IMG/VR virus record: IMGVR_UViG_3300021378_000120
Span: 1-28,323 of that record
DNA from: a virus
DNA length: 28,323 nucleotides
Direction: 5' to 3' (one strand)
Shown here: positions 4,198 to 27,859 of the stretch, piece by piece
How the letters are laid out: every line of letters starts with the position of its first letter
Numbering within the stretch: the stretch's first letter is position 1
Notes under the pieces: generated by a model
Seen by the model: only the letters and a program-made list of their open reading frames with translations
Told to the model about the DNA's origin: nothing
Database searches by the model: none
Made by a program: the position numbers and the translations under genes

Positions 4198-4716
4198 ATG
4201 CCAAGGTGTAAAAATTGTAAAGAAAAATTTGACGCAAAGCATTTTAACCAAAAGTTTTGTTTTCGGTCCGAATGCGTCAAAGTATGGGTTGAGACGGCCA
4301 AGGTTAAGAATTGGAAAAAAACGAAAAAAGAATGGAAACAGAAAAACGAAAGTATTAGTTCTTTAATGAAAAAAGCCCAAAAGGTTTTTAACGCGTACAT
4401 ACGCAAAAGGGACCATGGCAAGGAGTGCGCGAGTTGCGACACAATTTTAACAACCGAATACGACGCCGGACATTATTTTTCAAGTGGGGGTTTTAAAAGC
4501 GTTACATACAACGAGGCCAATTGTTGGGGGCAATGTCGAAAGTGCAACCATTTTTTAAGCGGAAATTTAATTGAGTATCAAATAAAAATACAACAAAGAA
4601 TTGGCGCGGATCATTTGTTGGAATTATACACCGAGGCCCACAAAGAAAAAAAATATACAAGGGACGAATTAAACGAAATTGTTGAAAAGTACAAAAAGAA
4701 AATAAAAGAATTGTAA
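4198..4716 (+). CDS. ninG: NinG recombination protein (Rap-like nuclease)
   Basis: 172 aa, near the usual length of the lambda NinG/Rap family. The N-terminus is a zinc knuckle (C4, C7, C21, C26). The core carries the family signature: KVFNAYIRKRDHGKECASC, DAGHYFSSGG, YNEANCWGQCRKCNHFLSGN, an HNH-type metal site. In lambda, Rap is a structure-specific nuclease acting on D-loops and Holliday junctions. Here it sits between replication genes and a recombination operon, suggesting junction processing of replicating phage DNA. Family identity is secure; activity is by homology. Confidence 0.9.
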   Translation: MPRCKNCKEKFDAKHFNQKFCFRSECVKVWVETAKVKNWKKTKKEWKQKNESISSLMKKAQKVFNAYIRKRDHGKECASCDTILTTEYDAGHYFSSGGFKSVTYNEANCWGQCRKCNHFLSGNLIEYQIKIQQRIGADHLLELYTEAHKEKKYTRDELNEIVEKYKKKIKEL

Positions 4717-4760: not shown

Positions 4761-5012
4761 ATGGAAAATGTAAAAACAGACGGTTTGGCGTCTCAAAAAC
4801 CAAAAAAAGAAATTGTCGAATTAATAAAATATATTAAAAGAGGCGAGGTTTGGTATAAGATAACAATAGACGGAGTTTACGTTGACAATTCATGTACCCA
4901 AGATTTAAAACAAGCCAACGAAATGTACGAAACGGTTTTACAATACGGAAGTTTAGTAATTGAAACGGTTTTACGTTCGCATTCAATACAAAAAGGGGGA
5001 CAAAATGGATAA
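4761..5012 (+). CDS. small protein, first gene of the recombination operon, unknown
   Basis: 83 aa. The core (YIKRGEVWYKITIDGVYVDNSCTQDLKQANEMYETVLQYGS) looks like a beta hairpin followed by a helix, somewhat like small phage proteins that modulate partners, but I do not recognise it. It overlaps the ERF gene by 8 bases. Its 3' end contains AAAAAGGGGGACAAA, a purine-rich stretch 3 bases before the next ATG that could act as an unusual Shine-Dalgarno in this otherwise SD-poor genome. Confidence 0.65.
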   Translation: MENVKTDGLASQKPKKEIVELIKYIKRGEVWYKITIDGVYVDNSCTQDLKQANEMYETVLQYGSLVIETVLRSHSIQKGGQNG

Positions 5013-5550
5013 GCCAACACCGAAAAAACGAACCGCAGTAAAAAACCAAAAAAGTATTTACGAGGCAATAGCAAATTTTCAATACGAGGTACCAATACTT
5101 TATAAAAAAAGTGAGGGTTACGGATATAAATATACAGATCTTGCCGAAATAATGCGCGTTATAACACCAATACTTAAAAAGCATGACTTGTTTGTAATGC
5201 AACCATTGGCCGGAACCGGTTTAAAAACTATTGTATGCCATTGGCCAACCAAAGAAACATTAGAAGAGTTTACAGAAATACCCCAAGACATAGCATTGGC
5301 AAAAATGAATCCATTTCAAGCCCAGGGTGCGGGGATATCTTATTGGCGTCGTTATGCGTTGTCTTCATTTTTCGGCCTTGTTTCGGACAAAGATATTGAC
5401 ATGGCCGGAAAAGCGGAACCGCAAAAACCAAGTTTAACAAACGAAAAATTTGAGCATGCGTTGGACGCAATAAGCAACGGTAAATACACCGTTGAAGAGT
5501 TAAAAGCAAATTTTAAATTGAGTACGAACCAATTAAAAAAATTGGCATGA
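5005..5550 (+). CDS. ERF-family single-strand annealing protein
   Basis: 181 aa from the ATG at 5005. An in-frame TTG at 4960 would overlap the previous gene by 50 bases and lacks homologous-looking sequence. The ERF core is clear: SIYEAIANFQYEVP near the start, a central helix-strand block (YTDLAEIMRVITPILKKHDL), and the hallmark GISYWRRYALSSFFGL at residues 110-125 followed by an acidic DKDID. ERF proteins anneal complementary single strands after end resection. The partner exonuclease is the next gene, with overlapping start and stop, and an SSB-like gene follows, making a complete Red-like recombination set. Confidence 0.88.
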   Translation: MDKPTPKKRTAVKNQKSIYEAIANFQYEVPILYKKSEGYGYKYTDLAEIMRVITPILKKHDLFVMQPLAGTGLKTIVCHWPTKETLEEFTEIPQDIALAKMNPFQAQGAGISYWRRYALSSFFGLVSDKDIDMAGKAEPQKPSLTNEKFEHALDAISNGKYTVEELKANFKLSTNQLKKLA

Positions 5551-6245
5551 GCGAATTAAAAATACGTTGTTCGTCAATTGGCAAAATAATGACCAACCCA
5601 AGATCAAAAAAAGAAACGTTGAGTAAAACATGCAAAACGTATATACAAGACATTTTTAAGGAAAACGAATTTGGTATTGTACGCGAGTTTAGAAGCCGTT
5701 ATATTGACAAAGGCAACGATTGCGAAACGCAAAGCATTGAATTGGCCAACGAGGTTTTGGAATGGAAATTGCCTTTTGACGTTATACATGGAAAACAACA
5801 TGCGTTTGAAAATGAATATTTAACCGGACATACAGACGTTTTAAGTAAAACGGTATTGGCAGACGTCAAGACAAGTTGGGACGGTACAACGTTTCCAATG
5901 TTTGACGAGGAAATACCAAATAAAGATTATTATTTTCAATGTATGGGGTATCTTGCTTTGACCGGTTACGATAAATGCGATCTTGCATATTGTTTAATTA
6001 ACACCCCGGAAAATATGGTATTGGACCAAATACGACGCGAGCATTGGTTAAACGATAGCGTATGGGACGGCGACGAAAACCCGGATATTGTGGCCATGGT
6101 TCGTTCGCGACATGAGTTTGACCATATACCAAAAGAAAAACGAGTAAAAAACTTTGTAATTGAAAGAGACGACGACGTAATAAAAAGCATATACGAACGC
6201 GTTGAGCAATGCCGAGAATATTATAAACAATTAAAAACAAAATAA
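5547..6245 (+). CDS. PD-(D/E)XK exonuclease (YqaJ/lambda-exo-like)
   Basis: 232 aa. Active-site layout of the PD-(D/E)XK fold: E60 in the helix after YIDKGNDCE, D97 in YLTGHTDVL, and D106-V-K108 in LADVKTSW, followed by the conserved Gln Q131 in YYFQCMGYL. The usual E-x-K is D-V-K here, an accepted variant. It would resect dsDNA ends 5' to 3' so that the ERF protein encoded just upstream (4-base overlap) can anneal strands. Alternatives such as a Cas4-like or RecB-like nuclease are less likely because there is no iron-sulfur cysteine cluster. Confidence 0.82.
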   Translation: MSELKIRCSSIGKIMTNPRSKKETLSKTCKTYIQDIFKENEFGIVREFRSRYIDKGNDCETQSIELANEVLEWKLPFDVIHGKQHAFENEYLTGHTDVLSKTVLADVKTSWDGTTFPMFDEEIPNKDYYFQCMGYLALTGYDKCDLAYCLINTPENMVLDQIRREHWLNDSVWDGDENPDIVAMVRSRHEFDHIPKEKRVKNFVIERDDDVIKSIYERVEQCREYYKQLKTK

Positions 6246-8493: not shown

Positions 8494-8839
8494 AACAACG
8501 GACAAAACGAACACTAAAAAAAGGGACATGCTCAAAGCCCTAAATTTGACATGCGGTAACGTGAGCGAAGCATGCAAAAAAGCCAAGGCAAGCCGAACCC
8601 AACATTACGAATGGTTAAAGATTGACGAAGACTATAAACGCGCAGTCAAAGAAATTGAAGAGGCGAACAAGGATTGGGTTGAGGGTAAAATAAGACAACA
8701 CATTGAAAACGACAACCCGACGGTAACAATATTTTACGCCAAAACAAAAATGCGGGACCGGGGGTATATTGAAACAAATGACCACAACGTGAGCATATCA
8801 AAGGGAACGTTGCCCGAATGGTTTACAAATGACGAATAA
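8483..8839 (+). CDS. terS: terminase small subunit
   Basis: 118 aa. An N-terminal HTH (MLKALNLTCGNVSEACKKAKASRTQHYEWLKIDEDYKRAV), as in phBC6A51-type small terminases, is followed by a helical oligomerisation segment (VEGKIRQHIENDNPTVTIFYAKTKMRDRGY) typical of phage TerS. It would recognise the packaging site and recruit the large subunit, whose gene overlaps it by 11 bases. It is shorter than many TerS proteins but complete. Confidence 0.8.
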   Translation: MTNKTTDKTNTKKRDMLKALNLTCGNVSEACKKAKASRTQHYEWLKIDEDYKRAVKEIEEANKDWVEGKIRQHIENDNPTVTIFYAKTKMRDRGYIETNDHNVSISKGTLPEWFTNDE

Positions 8840-9977
8840 AGCCAACCCAAATTTTACATATTTAAAAGAGGCCGTACCCAAACAACGCGTAACTTTATTA
8901 CAAGGGGGTACAAGATCCGGCAAAACGTGGGCCGTTATTTATTACATAATTTGGTTGTGTAAAGAACACCCCAACGCCGGAATGGAAATTGACATTTGCC
9001 GAGACACATTTACGGCCCTAAAAAATACGGCATGGAAAGACTTTAAAGACATTCTTATAAAGCATGAATTGTACGACCGATTAAGCCACAACATGACCAA
9101 CGGTAAATATATTTTGTTTGGCAATACTATAAACTATTATGGGGCGGACGATAGCAAAAAAATACATGGACGGTCCCGCGATATATTATGGTTGAATGAA
9201 GCAAACCATTTGCCCGAGGACACCGTAAACCAATTGTTTCCAAGGACGAGACACAAAGTAATTGCCGATTACAACCCGGCGTTACCGGTTGAGCATTGGT
9301 TGGATCATTATATACCAAAGTACAAACCGTTTATTTCGACGTACCGGGACAACCCGCATTTGACACAAAGCCAAGTTGAGGACATTGAGGAAAAAATAAG
9401 CAACCCCTATTGGTGGACCGTTTACGGAACCGGCCAACGTTCACAACCAACCGGCGCGGTATTTTCCCATTGGTCAACCGGACCATTTGAGCAAACCGAT
9501 TTAATGGGGTTCGGCCAGGATTATGGATTTAGTCAAGACGCGACAACGTTAATTGAATGTAGTATAAACCGCAAAAAAAAGACGATACATTTAAGGGAAT
9601 GTTTTTACGAGGTGGGGTTAAGTACCGGGAGTATATACGAATTAAATATGCAACATGCCGGGCGCGAAAATTTAATTGTTGGGGATAGTGCCGAACCGCG
9701 TTTAATAAGTGAGTTAAAAGGCCGGGGCCTAAATATAGTTAGTGCGGTAAAAGGCCAAGGGAGTATTACAAGCGGTATTAGCTTAATGTTGGAATACAAA
9801 ATAATCATTGAACCAAAAAGCGAGAATTTAATAAAGGAGTTTAATAATTACCAATGGATCAGTAAAACCAATAAGACGGTGCCAAAGGACGAATGGAACC
9901 ATTGCATTGACGCATGCCGGTATTTTATTTCACAAGTTTTAGAGAACCCGCACCGGGGTAAATACTATCTTTATTAG
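8829..9977 (+). CDS. terL: terminase large subunit
   Basis: 382 aa, Terminase_3-like. ATPase: Walker A GGTRSGKT at residues 26-33; Walker B ILWLNE with D118 upstream and catalytic E124. The nuclease RNase-H-like triad is visible as D231 (FGQDYGF), D286 (VGDSAEP) and D361 (CIDACRY). It pumps DNA into the procapsid and cuts the concatemer. No feature decides between headful and cos packaging. The circularly closing assembly is compatible with headful, circularly permuted DNA, but does not prove it. Confidence 0.93.
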   Translation: MTNKANPNFTYLKEAVPKQRVTLLQGGTRSGKTWAVIYYIIWLCKEHPNAGMEIDICRDTFTALKNTAWKDFKDILIKHELYDRLSHNMTNGKYILFGNTINYYGADDSKKIHGRSRDILWLNEANHLPEDTVNQLFPRTRHKVIADYNPALPVEHWLDHYIPKYKPFISTYRDNPHLTQSQVEDIEEKISNPYWWTVYGTGQRSQPTGAVFSHWSTGPFEQTDLMGFGQDYGFSQDATTLIECSINRKKKTIHLRECFYEVGLSTGSIYELNMQHAGRENLIVGDSAEPRLISELKGRGLNIVSAVKGQGSITSGISLMLEYKIIIEPKSENLIKEFNNYQWISKTNKTVPKDEWNHCIDACRYFISQVLENPHRGKYYLY

Positions 9978-17840: not shown

Positions 17841-18429
17841 CATGAAAATTATTGAATTGGTCATTGACGAGGACGCAGAACACGTTGCCGTAGACGCGGT
17901 GAGTTTAGTTCGCGAACCGGCCATTGAGCAAAATTGGTACGCCCTTAATAAGCAAAAAAAATATGCTTTAAAATTAAACGAGGACAAGCGAATTATCTGT
18001 GGTCCGGCCTTAATTCCCCAAAAACAAATCTTCCGTTCAGACCGCGAGAATGGGGACTATTATATATGGTTTTCCAAATCGACGGTTGCAAAATGTAACG
18101 AGTTGTTTTTTAAGAATTACAACCAAAAAAACGTAACGTTCGAGCATGAGTACGCCGTTGACGGCAATTTTATTTTTGAAAGTTGGATAAAAGAGGACAA
18201 CGAAAACGATAAAAGTAACCTATATAATTTTGACGCCCCGGTTGGTACATGGTTTATTTCAATGAAAATTGAAAACGATGAAGTATGGAACGCCATTAAG
18301 GACGGTTCCGTACGCGGTTATTCAATTGAGGGACATTTTGCGGACGCCCTGGACTTAAGCAAAACAGAAACAACGGACCAAAAATTGCTCAATACAATTA
18401 AACAAATAATTTCGGAAAATGCCAAGTAA
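17836..18429 (+). CDS. prohead protease, XkdF-like
   Basis: 197 aa. The start block (IIELVIDEDAEHVAVDAVSLVREPAIEQNW) and RIICGPALIPQKQIFR are characteristic of the XkdF-type putative serine proteases. H104 in TFEHEYAVDG and S163 in VRGYSIEG are the probable catalytic pair. It would process scaffold and capsid precursors. Placed first in the head module, ahead of the scaffold-like and capsid genes. A second ATG at 17842 is also possible as start. Codon use in residues about 52-72 (ATC, TGT, TTC, CGT) is less AT-biased than around it. Confidence 0.75.
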   Translation: MSMKIIELVIDEDAEHVAVDAVSLVREPAIEQNWYALNKQKKYALKLNEDKRIICGPALIPQKQIFRSDRENGDYYIWFSKSTVAKCNELFFKNYNQKNVTFEHEYAVDGNFIFESWIKEDNENDKSNLYNFDAPVGTWFISMKIENDEVWNAIKDGSVRGYSIEGHFADALDLSKTETTDQKLLNTIKQIISENAK

Positions 18430-21176: not shown

Positions 21177-22130
21177 ATGGCAGCAAATCCTAGTATAACT
21201 ACATCTTATGTAGGAGAAAGCGCGGGGAAATATATCGCAAGTTCCCTTTTAAGCGCAAACACAATTGAGAACGGAGGACTTACAGTTGTTCCAAATATCA
21301 AATTTCGTCAAACAATGAAAATAGCCGACCTTGAAGCGGGTATTGCCGACGCCACATGCAATTACGAGGCGACCGGTACTACAACATTGACTGAACGAAT
21401 TTTAGAACCAAAAGAGTTACAAAGTCTGCAAACCCTTTGTATTGACGAGTTCAGAAAAGATTGGGACGCAGTTTCCATGGGGTATTCAGTACATGACAAT
21501 TTACCGCCTAATTTCCAGGAATGGGTTATTGCATACGTTTTAGGTAAAATTTCGGCAAAAACCGAAGTTGATATTTGGAACGGTAAAAAAGCAACAAACG
21601 GAGAATTTGACGGTTTATTGCCACAAATTGCAAACGCAATAACGGCGGGAGAAATTCCGGCGGGACAACAAGTACCATTAGTTGCCGGCGGTTTAAATGC
21701 CGGAAATATTGTTACGGAATTAGGCCTTTTGGTAGACGCAACACCCGACACCCTTTATGGTAACGAAAATTCGTTTATCTATATGGGAATCGGGGCATAC
21801 AAAGCATATACGCGCGCATTGGGCGGTTTTGGTGCAAACGGTTTAGGTGCCAACGGTTACGAAAATAGAGGTAACAACCAAAGTTTTGATACCGGTTTAA
21901 TGTTTGACGGCATGCGGATCTTTTGCGCACATGGAATGCCAAAAGACAAAATGATTGTAACGCATACGGAAAACCTATTTTTTGGGTGCGGTCTGATGAA
22001 TGACATGCTAGAATGTACACTTTTGGACATGCGACCAACAACGGGCGCACAAGAAATGAGACTAATCGTAAGGTATACGGCCGGGACGACATACGGAGTT
22101 GGTGCGGACATTGCAACGTACGGAGTATAA
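21177..22130 (+). CDS. major capsid protein
   Basis: 317 aa. The sequence (MAANPSITTSYVGESAGKYIASSLLSANTIENGGLTVVPNIKFRQTMKIAD start, EVDIWNGKK, ALGGFGANGLGANGYENRG loop, and FFGCGLMNDMLECTLLDM near the end) is the capsid type found in Bacteroidetes siphoviruses, probably HK97 fold. It shows less AT-biased codons (CCT, ACT, TCT, TTC, ATC) than neighbours, as expected for the most abundant virion protein. A 40-base A-rich leader precedes it and a GC-rich hairpin follows. No long N-terminal scaffold domain is present, in line with the separate scaffold-like gene. Confidence 0.82.
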   Translation: MAANPSITTSYVGESAGKYIASSLLSANTIENGGLTVVPNIKFRQTMKIADLEAGIADATCNYEATGTTTLTERILEPKELQSLQTLCIDEFRKDWDAVSMGYSVHDNLPPNFQEWVIAYVLGKISAKTEVDIWNGKKATNGEFDGLLPQIANAITAGEIPAGQQVPLVAGGLNAGNIVTELGLLVDATPDTLYGNENSFIYMGIGAYKAYTRALGGFGANGLGANGYENRGNNQSFDTGLMFDGMRIFCAHGMPKDKMIVTHTENLFFGCGLMNDMLECTLLDMRPTTGAQEMRLIVRYTAGTTYGVGADIATYGV

Positions 22131-22195: not shown

Positions 22196-22786
22196 ATGAG
22201 TTGTTTAATAGGAAATGGTCGTCTCGAAGCTTGCAAAGATAGCATAAGCGGAATTTCAAATATTTTTTTCATAAATTTCGGCGAAATTGACACCGTTACA
22301 TATAGCGGAACCGCGCCCGATTTAGGAGACGACATACAAGGAATAACCGGAGTTACAAAATTATACAAGTACGAATTAAAGGGGGCTAATGGGTTCGATC
22401 AGAATATTTTGTCGTCCAGGGCAAATGGAACAACGGTTTTTGAGCAAATGTTGACGGTTCAATTTAAACGTCAAGACATTAAGACACACAAAAATATAAA
22501 ATTCATCGCATACGGCAGACCATACGTTGTGGTGCAAAGCCGAACAAATGAGTTCTTTTTAATGGGCTTAAATGAGGGGGCCGATGTTGAATCGGGTTCC
22601 GTAAATTCGGGAGTTGAGTACACAGACTACAATGGGTATAATTTGGTGCTAAAAAGTACCGAACAAAGGCCGGCCAATTACTTGTCAGTTACGGACGCCA
22701 CAACCGGCGAAGACCGTCCAATAAAAGACGAAACCGAATTGGTTGACATTTTTGGGTTGACAATTTCGGACATTGTAACGACATAA
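22196..22786 (+). CDS. probable major tail (tube) protein
   Basis: 196 aa. The start MSCLIGNGRLEACKDSISGISNIFFINFGEID is a conserved N-terminus of an abundant virion protein in Bacteroidetes phages. The body is beta-rich (FEQMLTVQFKRQDIKTHKNIKFIAYGRPYVVVQ, then FFLMGLNEGADVESGSVNSGVEY), as in tail-tube folds. Codons such as CGT, CTC, GCT, TTC and CAG appear here as in the capsid gene, suggesting high expression. It lies between two terminators, as a monocistronic unit downstream of the capsid gene. The tail-tube role is inferred; a decoration protein is the alternative. Confidence 0.55.
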   Translation: MSCLIGNGRLEACKDSISGISNIFFINFGEIDTVTYSGTAPDLGDDIQGITGVTKLYKYELKGANGFDQNILSSRANGTTVFEQMLTVQFKRQDIKTHKNIKFIAYGRPYVVVQSRTNEFFLMGLNEGADVESGSVNSGVEYTDYNGYNLVLKSTEQRPANYLSVTDATTGEDRPIKDETELVDIFGLTISDIVTT

Positions 22787-23092: not shown

Positions 23093-23449
23093 ATGACCGT
23101 ATTATTGCCCGATACCGCAACCGAACAAACGTATAAATTTATTCCATTTATACAACCTACCGAAAATCTAAACATAACGAAAATTGATTTTTTGGACGAG
23201 CAAACAAACACAAACGCCGAGGCGGTATTGGGTACCTTTTCAACGGTTTCATTTTACAACGAAGTTAATTTAACAATACCATTAATTGAGGGCCGTTTTT
23301 ACATGGCCATTTTTTACGACGGTACAACCGAAATTTTCCGAGACAAAGTTTTTGCGACCGCGCAACCAATAGAAACATTTAGCGTAAATGCCGGGGTTTA
23401 TGAATACGGACCAAGTACGCCAAACGAATATATTTTATATGAGCAATAA
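23093..23449 (+). CDS. small virion protein upstream of the portal gene, unknown
   Basis: 118 aa, beta-rich (YKFIPFIQPTENLNITKIDFLDEQ, then VSFYNEVNLTIPLIEGRFYMAIFYDGTTEIFRDKVFAT, and the C-terminal PSTPNEYILYE). I recognise this as a conserved small protein near tail or portal genes of Bacteroidetes phages, without assigned role. It starts 6 bases after the 26-bp element and overlaps the portal start by 11 bases. Confidence 0.65.
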   Translation: MTVLLPDTATEQTYKFIPFIQPTENLNITKIDFLDEQTNTNAEAVLGTFSTVSFYNEVNLTIPLIEGRFYMAIFYDGTTEIFRDKVFATAQPIETFSVNAGVYEYGPSTPNEYILYEQ

Positions 23450-25250
23450 AGAAAATAACGTACATGTTATAAATTTGAATAGTTACGAACCGCCGGTAAT
23501 TGTTGAAAGCAAAAAAGACGAGTTCGTTTTTTTCGGCGAGGACAATTTATATTTTGATTACCTTATTGAACGTTATATACAAAGCCCAACGAACCATGCA
23601 GTTATAAACAATATTGTTAAGTTAATATACGGCAAAGGTTTAATGGCTTCGGACGCGTCAAAACGTCCCGAGCAATACGCCCAAATGAAAATGCTTTTTT
23701 CAAAAGATTGTACCCGCCGGTTGGCGTCCGATCTTAAAATGTTGGGACAATGCGCAATACAAGTTTTATATAATAAGGACCGTTCAAAAATTGTTGAAAC
23801 AAACCATGTACCAATACAATTATTAAGGGCCGAAAAATGTAGTATTGAAACCGGCGAAATTGAAGCATATTATTTTAGCAATGATTGGTCCGATTTACGA
23901 AACCATGAACCGCAAAGAATTAGCGCGTTTGGCATGTCAAAAGACGATACCGAAATTTTATACATTCGGCCTTATAGCGTAAATATGCGTTATTATTCGT
24001 ACCCGGATTGGCAAGGCGTTGTAAGTTATTCGCAATTAGAAACTGAAATATCGCATTTTTTAGTAAATGATACACAAAATGGGTTCTCCGGAACCCGGAT
24101 TGTAAATCTCAATTCGGGGGTGCCGGACATTGAAAAAAGAGAGGAAATAAAGCATGAAATTTTACAAAAGTTAAGCGGGGCGCGGGGCCAAAAAACAATT
24201 GTAAGTTTCAACCATGATAGCACAAACCAAACGGACATACAAGACATTAGTTTAAATAATGCGCCGTCCCATTATGAATATTTGTCCGACGAGTGCATGC
24301 ACAAGATACTCACTGGCCATGGCGTCGTGAATTCTGCTATCTTCGGGATAGCAACGGCAAGCGGTTTTAGTTCGGCAAGTGATGAGTTAATGACGTCGTT
24401 TCAATTGTATATGAACATGACGGTACGACCGTTCCAGGACTTGTTAATTGACGGCCTACAAAAAATATTAACGTACAACGAGGTTAATTTAAACTTGTAT
24501 TTTGAGACTTTAAACCCTTTTGACAAATACGACGCCAACGGAAACGTAATTGTTGACGAAGAGGAAAAACAAGAGTTAAAAAAAGAAACGCCAGAAATTG
24601 ATTTAAGCATGTACGGCGAAAAGCCAAACAAGGAATGGATATTAATTGACGAGTTCGACGCGGACATTGAAAAGGAGAACGAGTACGACCAAGAAATTGA
24701 ATTGGCGCAAAAAAAAGCAAATGAGAACAAGCCCGAAAAATTGAGCATGTACCAAAGATTGCGTAAAGCAATGTTAGTAAGTACCGGAAACCCACAACCG
24801 GCCGAAGTGAGCGAGCAAGATTGGATCATAAACGGCATGTATTTTATAACAAGGTACCGATACGTTGAAACTGACTATTTAAGCAAACCAAGTAAGGGGG
24901 GCGAAAGCCGGCCATTTTGTAGGGCAATGATGAGACAAAACGATAATGTTTACCGTAAAGAGGACCTTGACGCCATGAGTAAAAACCCAAGTATAAACCC
25001 CGGGTTTGGTCCAAATGGTTCTAATACATACGATATAATGGCATACAAGGGCGGGCCTAACTGCAAACATTTGTTTCGTCGTCAAGTATGGGTTGGCGTA
25101 GATTTTGGCGTACCCCTGGACCCGACAAGCCAATTAGCAAATCAAATAAGCGTTTACCGAGCGCGTCAATACGGATATAGAGTAAAAGGCAACCCAAGCG
25201 AAACGGCGGTTGCACCAATAAACCAACCAAACCAAGGTTATTTAAAGTAA
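23439..25250 (+). CDS. portal protein with C-terminal extension
   Basis: 603 aa from ATG 23439; in-frame ATGs at 23388 and 23400 lie inside the upstream gene. Residues about 15-400 have portal character: FFGEDNLYFDYLIERYIQSPTNHAVINNIVKLIYGKGL, then long helices, then HKILTGHGVVNSAIFGIATASGFSSASDELMTSFQLY, the conserved stem region. An acidic linker (about 375-440) leads to a C-terminal domain of about 130 residues with GGESRPFCRAMM, VYRKEDLDAMS, NPGFGPNG and YDIMAYKGGPNCKHLFRRQVW. That block recurs in Bacteroidetes phages and vaguely recalls MuF-type minor head proteins. Residues 291-304 are encoded by unusual codons; see findings. Confidence 0.75.
   Translation: MSNKENNVHVINLNSYEPPVIVESKKDEFVFFGEDNLYFDYLIERYIQSPTNHAVINNIVKLIYGKGLMASDASKRPEQYAQMKMLFSKDCTRRLASDLKMLGQCAIQVLYNKDRSKIVETNHVPIQLLRAEKCSIETGEIEAYYFSNDWSDLRNHEPQRISAFGMSKDDTEILYIRPYSVNMRYYSYPDWQGVVSYSQLETEISHFLVNDTQNGFSGTRIVNLNSGVPDIEKREEIKHEILQKLSGARGQKTIVSFNHDSTNQTDIQDISLNNAPSHYEYLSDECMHKILTGHGVVNSAIFGIATASGFSSASDELMTSFQLYMNMTVRPFQDLLIDGLQKILTYNEVNLNLYFETLNPFDKYDANGNVIVDEEEKQELKKETPEIDLSMYGEKPNKEWILIDEFDADIEKENEYDQEIELAQKKANENKPEKLSMYQRLRKAMLVSTGNPQPAEVSEQDWIINGMYFITRYRYVETDYLSKPSKGGESRPFCRAMMRQNDNVYRKEDLDAMSKNPSINPGFGPNGSNTYDIMAYKGGPNCKHLFRRQVWVGVDFGVPLDPTSQLANQISVYRARQYGYRVKGNPSETAVAPINQPNQGYLK
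24293..24352 (+). other. codon-atypical patch with palindromes and UUCG hairpin inside the portal gene
   Basis: The patch opens with the palindrome GTGCATGCAC (24293-24302). Codons CTC ACT GGC CAT GGC GTC (24309-24326) and then GTG AAT TCT GCT ATC TTC (24327-24344) are rare elsewhere in the genome. TGGCCA, CCATGG and GAATTC also lie inside. GCTATC-TTCGG-GATAGC (24336-24352) can fold into a hairpin whose tip can be the stable C(UUCG)G tetraloop. This suggests a nucleic-acid-level function or an imported segment. Confidence 0.55.
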
Positions 25251-25818: not shown

Positions 25819-27321
25819 ATGGCAATAACGACAAAAATAAGTGAATTACCGGCAAAAGGGGCCAATTTAGGTTCGGGAGATTTAGTACCAATTGCCGAAG
25901 TTGACGCCGGAAGCCCAACCGGTTATTCGACAAAATATGTAACCGGTGCCGAAATAGGCGGAGGCGGAGGCGGAGGAAATACCATATATAGCGCGGACGA
26001 TACAATAAGTACACCGCGTACCGTAACCATTGGAACGTCTTTAAAATTTGACGCCGGCAAATTGGACCGTATAGACGCCAACGGACGAAATATTGTTGAG
26101 GTTATAAGAAATACAGATTTACCCACAACATTATTGGCGGACACAACATATATAATAAGGGGCCAAATAACCTTTACAAGTGCAATAACAATAAGCGCGG
26201 ACAATTGCGAAATTATAGGTTTAGACCGAAATAGCGACCACATGGTTTGGGGCGGTTCCGGAAGTTTTTTACGAATACAAGACGTAGATTTTAATTTGTC
26301 AAATTTAAAATTTAGCGCAACCAATAGTTCGAGTTCAATTATAAGAGGCGTAAACGTTGACGGCGTAAGTTATAACGACGGCCGAAACAAAATATTGTCA
26401 ATATTCAATTGTCAATTTAGGGGGACATACGACGTAATGCTAATAAAAGGTTTTGATTTAGTAGACATAAACCAATGCTTGTTTTTTTATATTAAAGCAA
26501 CCGCCAACGGTTGTTCGTTTGAGGACGTAAGCAAATTACAAATTACAAGTTGTGAATTTATACGTTGGTTTGACGAAGCCACATTGCCAACGCCAAGCGG
26601 TTTTAGTACGGCGTCTATGATTAAATTAGAGGCCAACAATTTATCGGAATTTGGCGCGGTAAATATTAATGGTTGTATTATACACCCTCAAGAAACACAA
26701 ATTGGCGTTGACATAGATACAAATAGTACAACCGGTTTTGGTACGGTTAGTTCAAATACATTTGTTGAAACCGGGTTGACGTCCGGTACCGTATTTTCCC
26801 CGCTACAAGGTGGGTTGCCCGATTATTCACAAACGGCAACGCAAAATTATGACGTATTTACAAACCAAGGTTTATTAAATAGCCGGGCCGGTATTTTGTC
26901 AACAATGCAAGGTAACACCGGAGCCGGAAGCGAAACCGTAATATCGACAATAAACACCCCGGTTAAAATAGAAACAAACAATAATAACGTACAAAAGGAC
27001 CGCGTACGGTGGACCGGGAGTTCAGACGGTACATTTACATATTTAGCAAAAAAACAAATTTTTGTTTCAATACATGCTACAATAAATTACGAAAAAATTG
27101 GGGGCGGTTCCGGACAAAATTATACGTTTTACGTTTATAAAAATAACGTACAAATTGCGTTTAGTGCCATTCAAACAAATGCGGTAAATGACATCGATAG
27201 TTTAACGATGAGTTTTGCAACATTAATAGACAATACGAACCAATTGACATTTTACGTTGAAAATAATAGCGGAACATCTAACATAGCAATACGCGATTGG
27301 CAAATAGTAATTAGAGAATAA
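25819..27321 (+). CDS. tail fiber / tailspike, receptor-binding protein
   Basis: 500 aa. The N-terminus (TTKISELPAKGANLGSGDLVPIAEV) is the short virion-attachment motif common in phage fibers. A 7-Gly linker follows at about residues 48-54. Residues about 95-340 look like a right-handed beta helix, with repeated short strands and N/G turns (CEIIGLDRNSD, VDFNLSNLKFSATNSSS, LQITSCEFIRWF, VNINGCIIHPQ). The last 120 residues form a separate beta domain (TYLAKKQIFVSIHATINYEK, then NYTFYVYKNNVQIAFSA, then NQLTFYVENNSG), like C1q/TNF jelly-roll tips. It probably binds, and may cleave, host surface glycan. No catalytic residues can be assigned. Confidence 0.75.
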   Translation: MAITTKISELPAKGANLGSGDLVPIAEVDAGSPTGYSTKYVTGAEIGGGGGGGNTIYSADDTISTPRTVTIGTSLKFDAGKLDRIDANGRNIVEVIRNTDLPTTLLADTTYIIRGQITFTSAITISADNCEIIGLDRNSDHMVWGGSGSFLRIQDVDFNLSNLKFSATNSSSSIIRGVNVDGVSYNDGRNKILSIFNCQFRGTYDVMLIKGFDLVDINQCLFFYIKATANGCSFEDVSKLQITSCEFIRWFDEATLPTPSGFSTASMIKLEANNLSEFGAVNINGCIIHPQETQIGVDIDTNSTTGFGTVSSNTFVETGLTSGTVFSPLQGGLPDYSQTATQNYDVFTNQGLLNSRAGILSTMQGNTGAGSETVISTINTPVKIETNNNNVQKDRVRWTGSSDGTFTYLAKKQIFVSIHATINYEKIGGGSGQNYTFYVYKNNVQIAFSAIQTNAVNDIDSLTMSFATLIDNTNQLTFYVENNSGTSNIAIRDWQIVIRE

Positions 27322-27629: not shown

Positions 27630-27859
27630 GCGACACAATAGTACATACCGGACATTGCGATACGGTTATTGAAAACAAACATATTGTAATTGATACGTTT
27701 GTAAAACAAGACACCGTTTTTATTGAAACGCAAACATTTGACAAGGAAATACAAATACTTGAAAAATTAATTGAAAAACCGGACTTTGGAAAATCGGTTG
27801 TTTCTGTTTTGATCCTGGTTTTTGTCTGTTATACATTGTTAAAAAAACGAAAAAAATGA
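27626..27859 (+). CDS. small tail-anchored protein of the lysis cassette
   Basis: 77 aa. Residues 1-50 are soluble with strand-like repeats (TVIENKHIVIDTFVKQDTVFIETQTF) and a helix (KEIQILEKLIEK). Residues about 55-71 form a single membrane span (KSVVSVLILVFVCYTLL), followed by KKRKK. The positive-inside rule puts the C-terminus in the cytoplasm and the N-terminus outside, the reverse of a lambda Rz spanin. Between holin and endolysin genes, it could be a spanin-like or antiholin factor; unproven. The membrane span is encoded with unusual codons (TCT, ATC, CTG, GTC, TGT). Confidence 0.65.
   Translation: MSDTIVHTGHCDTVIENKHIVIDTFVKQDTVFIETQTFDKEIQILEKLIEKPDFGKSVVSVLILVFVCYTLLKKRKK

Follow-up and report, generated by a model that had tools for sequence, protein, structure and literature searches.

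Our analyses indicate that the portal protein gene of this phage contains a short patch of foreign codons, which it probably acquired as a homologous-recombination import from an unsampled phage. The window, that is, the whole stretch of 28,323 nucleotides analyzed here, is a phage genome represented by one virus record, and its 38 genes were scanned for codon use. The strongest rare-codon run of the genome lies inside the portal gene at 24303-24347 (Table 1), where the first-pass annotation had placed an abrupt change of codon choice. The best 14-codon window (24303-24344) scored z = -8.9, and the second best anywhere in the genome scored -6.4. Seven of these 14 codons are rare, defined as a usage below 7% in this genome, whereas windows without patch overlap contain at most three. 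The smoothed codon score of the patch, -8.4, is far beyond chance, as none of 300 genome-wide synonymous-codon shuffles went below -7.3. Also the codon preferences proposed in the first-pass annotation were correct, with CTC at 1%, GCT at 3%, GTC and TCT at 4%, ATC at 5% and ACT at 6% of genome usage. The genome does not hold many similar patches; this one is its clear extreme. No tRNA genes that might account for the rare codons were found.

Table 1. Positions of the patch, its surroundings and related features; coordinates refer to the window unless a relative is named.
Feature	Coordinates	Strand	Remarks
NinG gene	4198-4716		
Erf-like single-strand annealing protein	4960..5550	+	PHROG 155, E 3.5e-24; candidate agent of short-tract recombination
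Phage recombination exonuclease	5547..6245	+	PHROG 5715, E 1.3e-50; likely partner of the annealing protein
TerL gene	8829-9977		
Portal protein gene, 620 aa	23388..25250	+	PHROG 33693 portal, E 9e-84
Site A	24069-24131		conserved portal motif with foreign-codon patches in homologues
Left flank of tract	24210..24247	+	38 nt identical in window and G002, from the difference list
Whole divergent tract against G002	24260..24347	+	18 of 90 nt differ in the 30 codons 24261-24350, no amino-acid changes
Perfect 10-bp palindrome GTGCATGCAC	24293..24302	.	also in G002, there amid native codons; incidental
Foreign-codon patch	24303..24347	+	AAG ATA CTC ACT GGC CAT GGC GTC GTG AAT TCT GCT ATC TTC GGG
Site B	present patch site		conserved portal motif with foreign-codon patches in homologues
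Hairpin, 7-bp stem, UUCG-containing loop	24335..24353	+	in window and L001, not in G002; incidental
Right flank of tract	24348..24385	+	38 nt identical in window and G002, from the difference list
Site C	25023-25058		conserved portal motif with foreign-codon patches in homologues
NUMOD4/HNH-type endonuclease gene	L049 8324-8737		directly after the 166-aa gene that follows the portal
NUMOD4/HNH-type endonuclease gene	L026 about 6069-6185		downstream of the portal

The portal gene starts at 23388 or 23400. A Pfam search with its protein gave no match, no homologous solved structure was found by sequence, and an AlphaFold model from 10 sequences had a mean pLDDT of 40 and was set aside. At the ends of the window, positions 1-136 are near-identical to the last ~136 bases, an end repeat of ~136 bases. 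A lysis-type gene at 27856 is interrupted by the window end and resumes at the beginning, the pattern of a circularly closed assembly. Next to the patch, the 25 nt at 24352-24376 recur as a near-repeat at 26588-26612, where gene 25819-27321 encodes a similar short peptide.

The portal gene was compared with that of the sister genome G002. The G002 portal protein is 98% identical to that of the window and has the same peptide at the patch, encoded by native codons. Within 24303-24347, nine codons and ten bases differ, all synonymously, and in this genome each of the nine patch codons is rarer than its G002 counterpart. The other 72 synonymous differences between the two portal genes are unbiased in this respect (mean +0.02 versus -1.68 in the patch, p = 2.5e-5). 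Divergence extends upstream of the rare codons: over 24255-24347, 16 of 31 codons differ synonymously, a density that none of 20,000 permutations reached, and our tract criterion called the pair at 24261-24348, where 20% of the bases diverge, compared with 2.9% and 3.8% in the two flanks. Upstream of 24303, codon use in the tract does not look foreign, and either lineage may have changed in that half. What we observe is hence a local, purely synonymous allele replacement with foreign composition between near-identical flanks.

Two further segments were noted in the comparison with G002. The second strongest rare-codon run, at 22367-22420, lies over a conserved motif (KGANGFDQNILSSR) of gene 22196-22786, and the differences from G002 at 22367-22411 are likewise synonymous; it is probably a second short import. 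In the G002 region matching 21801-21845 (gene 21177-22130), the rarer codons are those of G002, over ALGGFGANG, and in the relative L027 a rare-codon run lies at an apparently homologous motif.

Contig L001, from a different metagenome, carries the window's patch allele with one difference. Assembly can merge mixed strains, and the genomes compared here are single metagenome-derived contigs. However, the presence of the allele in an independent metagenome contig argues against an assembly artefact, and the rare-codon run lies beyond every permutation at window sizes of 10, 14 and 20 codons. We therefore regard chance or an artefact of assembly as extremely improbable.

The dinucleotide composition of the clade shows why the patch stands out. 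In the window, CpT and TpC occur at 0.28 and 0.39 of their expected frequencies. This suppression is common to the window, G002 (L098+L099) and L001 at all codon positions, and it goes along with an excess of CpG, CpC and TpT. The codon-codon junction is affected too, so the suppression acts on dinucleotides and goes beyond codon choice. Most other members of the portal family are without it, with a median CpT of about 1.0. The patch contains 10 CT/TC steps per 45 bases, the genome maximum, and the homologous 45 bases of G002 only two. The patch thus stands out because the clade suppresses CpT/TpC genome-wide and the patch does not. CT/TC-rich islands occur also at 5338-5382 in the Erf gene (SYWRRYALSSFFGLV) and at 17995-18039 in a head-protease gene. 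Both are common to G002 and hence older than the portal patch. CpT depletion together with CpG excess has been reported for large DNA viruses that infect invertebrates (PMC4219779).

The first-pass annotation had considered that the patch acts as nucleic acid, i.e. as a packaging signal, an RNA element or a ribosome-pausing site, and had pointed to a palindrome, a UUCG hairpin and rare words around it. Palindrome and hairpin are indeed present, but neither is unusual: perfect 10-bp palindromes number 29 in the genome, where 53 are expected, and comparable hairpins number 59, where 58 are expected. GAATTC at 24329 is, as had been noted, the sole copy in the window, where 4.6 are expected. The reported scarcity of CTGG outside CCTGG was confirmed as well, with 24 CTGG versus 68 expected in the window and 11 of 13 plus-strand copies within CCTGG. 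Among other words, CAG is scarce in the window (72 versus 221 expected), as is CTG (30 versus 61), and CCTGG, CCAGG and GATC are over-represented (GATC 35 versus 11 expected).

A lineage-specific selection on the nucleic acid would agree with the occurrence of the hairpin in both the window and L001. In addition, the frequency of rare codons is somewhat raised in the conserved portal motifs of the family (Spearman -0.38 after smoothing, from strongly autocorrelated windows). Against such selection, G002 encodes the same peptide with neither the hairpin, nor GAATTC, nor the rare codons. The RNA folding proposed in the first-pass annotation did not help either: the entire 76-nt region folds no better than its shuffled versions (z 0.06), a low folding z (-3.1) was obtained only for a hand-picked 23-nt hairpin, and an Rfam search gave no match. 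Beyond the sister pair, we sampled 231 portal homologues, and apart from the window and L001 none of them keeps the patch sequence; over 93 homologues, the mean z at site B was -0.3. The free synonymous variation against G002, which the first-pass annotation had named as grounds for refuting its reading, is unlike a conserved signal and looks like an imported allele. A packaging signal, an RNA hairpin or a ribosome-pausing cluster is hence unsupported and very unlikely, and of the options initially put forward, the last one, a recent recombination import, is favored by the G002 comparison.

Similar tracts recur in the portal family. Called independently of codon use, short tracts (60-180 nt) with high divergence between near-identical flanks were found 51 times in 1,012 close pairs, although the same sequence enters many pairs and the calls are thus not independent. 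The called tracts are distributed throughout the conserved portion of the portal gene. The clearest case lies at site B itself, where L123 and L149 of an unrelated clade differ over 24255-24432 in 17 residues and at 55 of 180 bases, with almost identical sides. For several family tracts, a donor-like third sequence was present that is close in the tract and distant elsewhere, as in the pairs L174/L034 (3.3% in the tract, 23% in the rest) and L194/L130 (0% and 14%). Dividing the site A alleles of the L025 clade into two discrete haplotypes proved too strong, as L114, L218, L051 and L164 are intermediate.

Foreign-codon patches at p <= 0.005 were found in 14 of 230 homologues, mostly at few conserved motifs (sites A to C in Table 1). 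Counting roughly one event per clade, these patches are clustered beyond a uniform distribution, six pairs of events being no more than 36 nt apart (p 0.003; 0.014 when one related event is left out). The simplest reason for this preference would be that homology to diverged partners is best at conserved motifs. A nuclease targeting conserved portal motifs would give the same preference. In such a scenario a homing endonuclease, an intron, an intein or a different sequence-specific nuclease, for example CRISPR, targets the motif, and the recoded allele is resistant to cleavage and spreads by break repair. The clustering of events and the replacement of site B in an unrelated clade could be read in this way, and in two relatives, L049 and L026, NUMOD4-HNH genes lie ~0.5-0.6 kb downstream of the portal. 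Mobile introns are moreover known to increase polymorphism in the exons next to their sites, as described for mitochondrial introns, and the portal patch resembles such co-conversion footprints in that its changes are dense, largely synonymous and restricted to one conserved coding motif (PMC5378118). Unlike in these footprints, however, neither the window phage nor G002 has an endonuclease gene, an intein or an intron at the site or next to it, and searches for HNH_3, NUMOD4, GIY-YIG and group I introns gave no match in the window or in G002. Furthermore, tracts are found throughout the conserved part of the portal gene and not at site B alone, and none of the gathered loci, whose gathering selects against interrupted genes, has an interrupted portal gene. 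Nuclease-driven co-conversion thus seems unlikely to us. A broader variant, in which conserved portal motifs are attacked by a sequence-specific nuclease and interchangeable, protein-neutral recoded alleles of ~50-180 bases serve as resistance cassettes, we consider quite unlikely.

The donor of the patch was not found in the collections searched. Scans of IMG/VR with the peptide patterns GHGVVN.AIFG, KILTGHGV and NSAIFGIA located the peptide in a portal only within the window clade and in no other contig; matches to NSAIFGIA elsewhere were dismissed as donors, being in unrelated reading frames. A distant portal family of ~455 aa (L100, L102, L104-L111) was rejected as a donor, as it shares KILTGHGVV but not the codons. 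The nearer relatives of the window clade, unlike that family, have KILLSHNVTSP. A DNA search of phage and plasmid records yielded nothing relevant, and a search of bacterial and archaeal genomes with the portal alignment yielded a single, distant relative from a Bacteroidota MAG. Among the sampled relatives, none has a codon use that favors the patch over the native version (best log-ratio -1.2; -15 for the window itself).

For the import by homologous recombination, we envisage that a segment of ~45-90 bases entered from a diverged co-infecting phage or prophage. Such a donor segment would have encoded the same conserved portal motif with ordinary codons and would not have been CpT/TpC-poor. 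It probably then took the place of the resident segment, in an ancestor shared by the window phage and L001. A donor encoding exactly the same residues would have to be assumed, which is a demanding condition, though the segment is functionally constrained. Judging from the genes present, the phage's own Erf-type annealing protein and exonuclease would be the likely agents. The direction of transfer is our inference, as are the nature of the donor and the choice of enzyme, whose role is deduced from gene content.

In experiments, Rad52-like recombinases including Erf act on short, diverged segments (PMC3945230). The portal patch agrees with the phage mosaicism ascribed to relaxed homologous recombination by Red beta/Erf/RecT (De Paepe et al. 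2014, PMC3945230) in that a segment is replaced between similar flanks. As in mosaicism by Rad52-like proteins (PMC3945230), an Erf-type annealing protein and an exonuclease are encoded in the window, and tracts are frequent in relatives. In contrast to the homology regions described there, the portal tract is much shorter (about 45-90 nt) and purely synonymous; as no donor is known, it was recognized by its codon and dinucleotide composition. The probable cause is an ordinary, familiar kind of phage mosaicism, of which this patch is a clear example.

In a phage with a strong dinucleotide bias, imports of ~45 bases become visible even when they leave the amino-acid sequence unchanged. Composition can hence detect micro-recombination that is missed by protein comparison. 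What causes CpT depletion together with CpG excess in a phage is worth study. Where patches of odd codons are encountered in conserved phage genes, a sister genome should be compared before a regulatory role is proposed.
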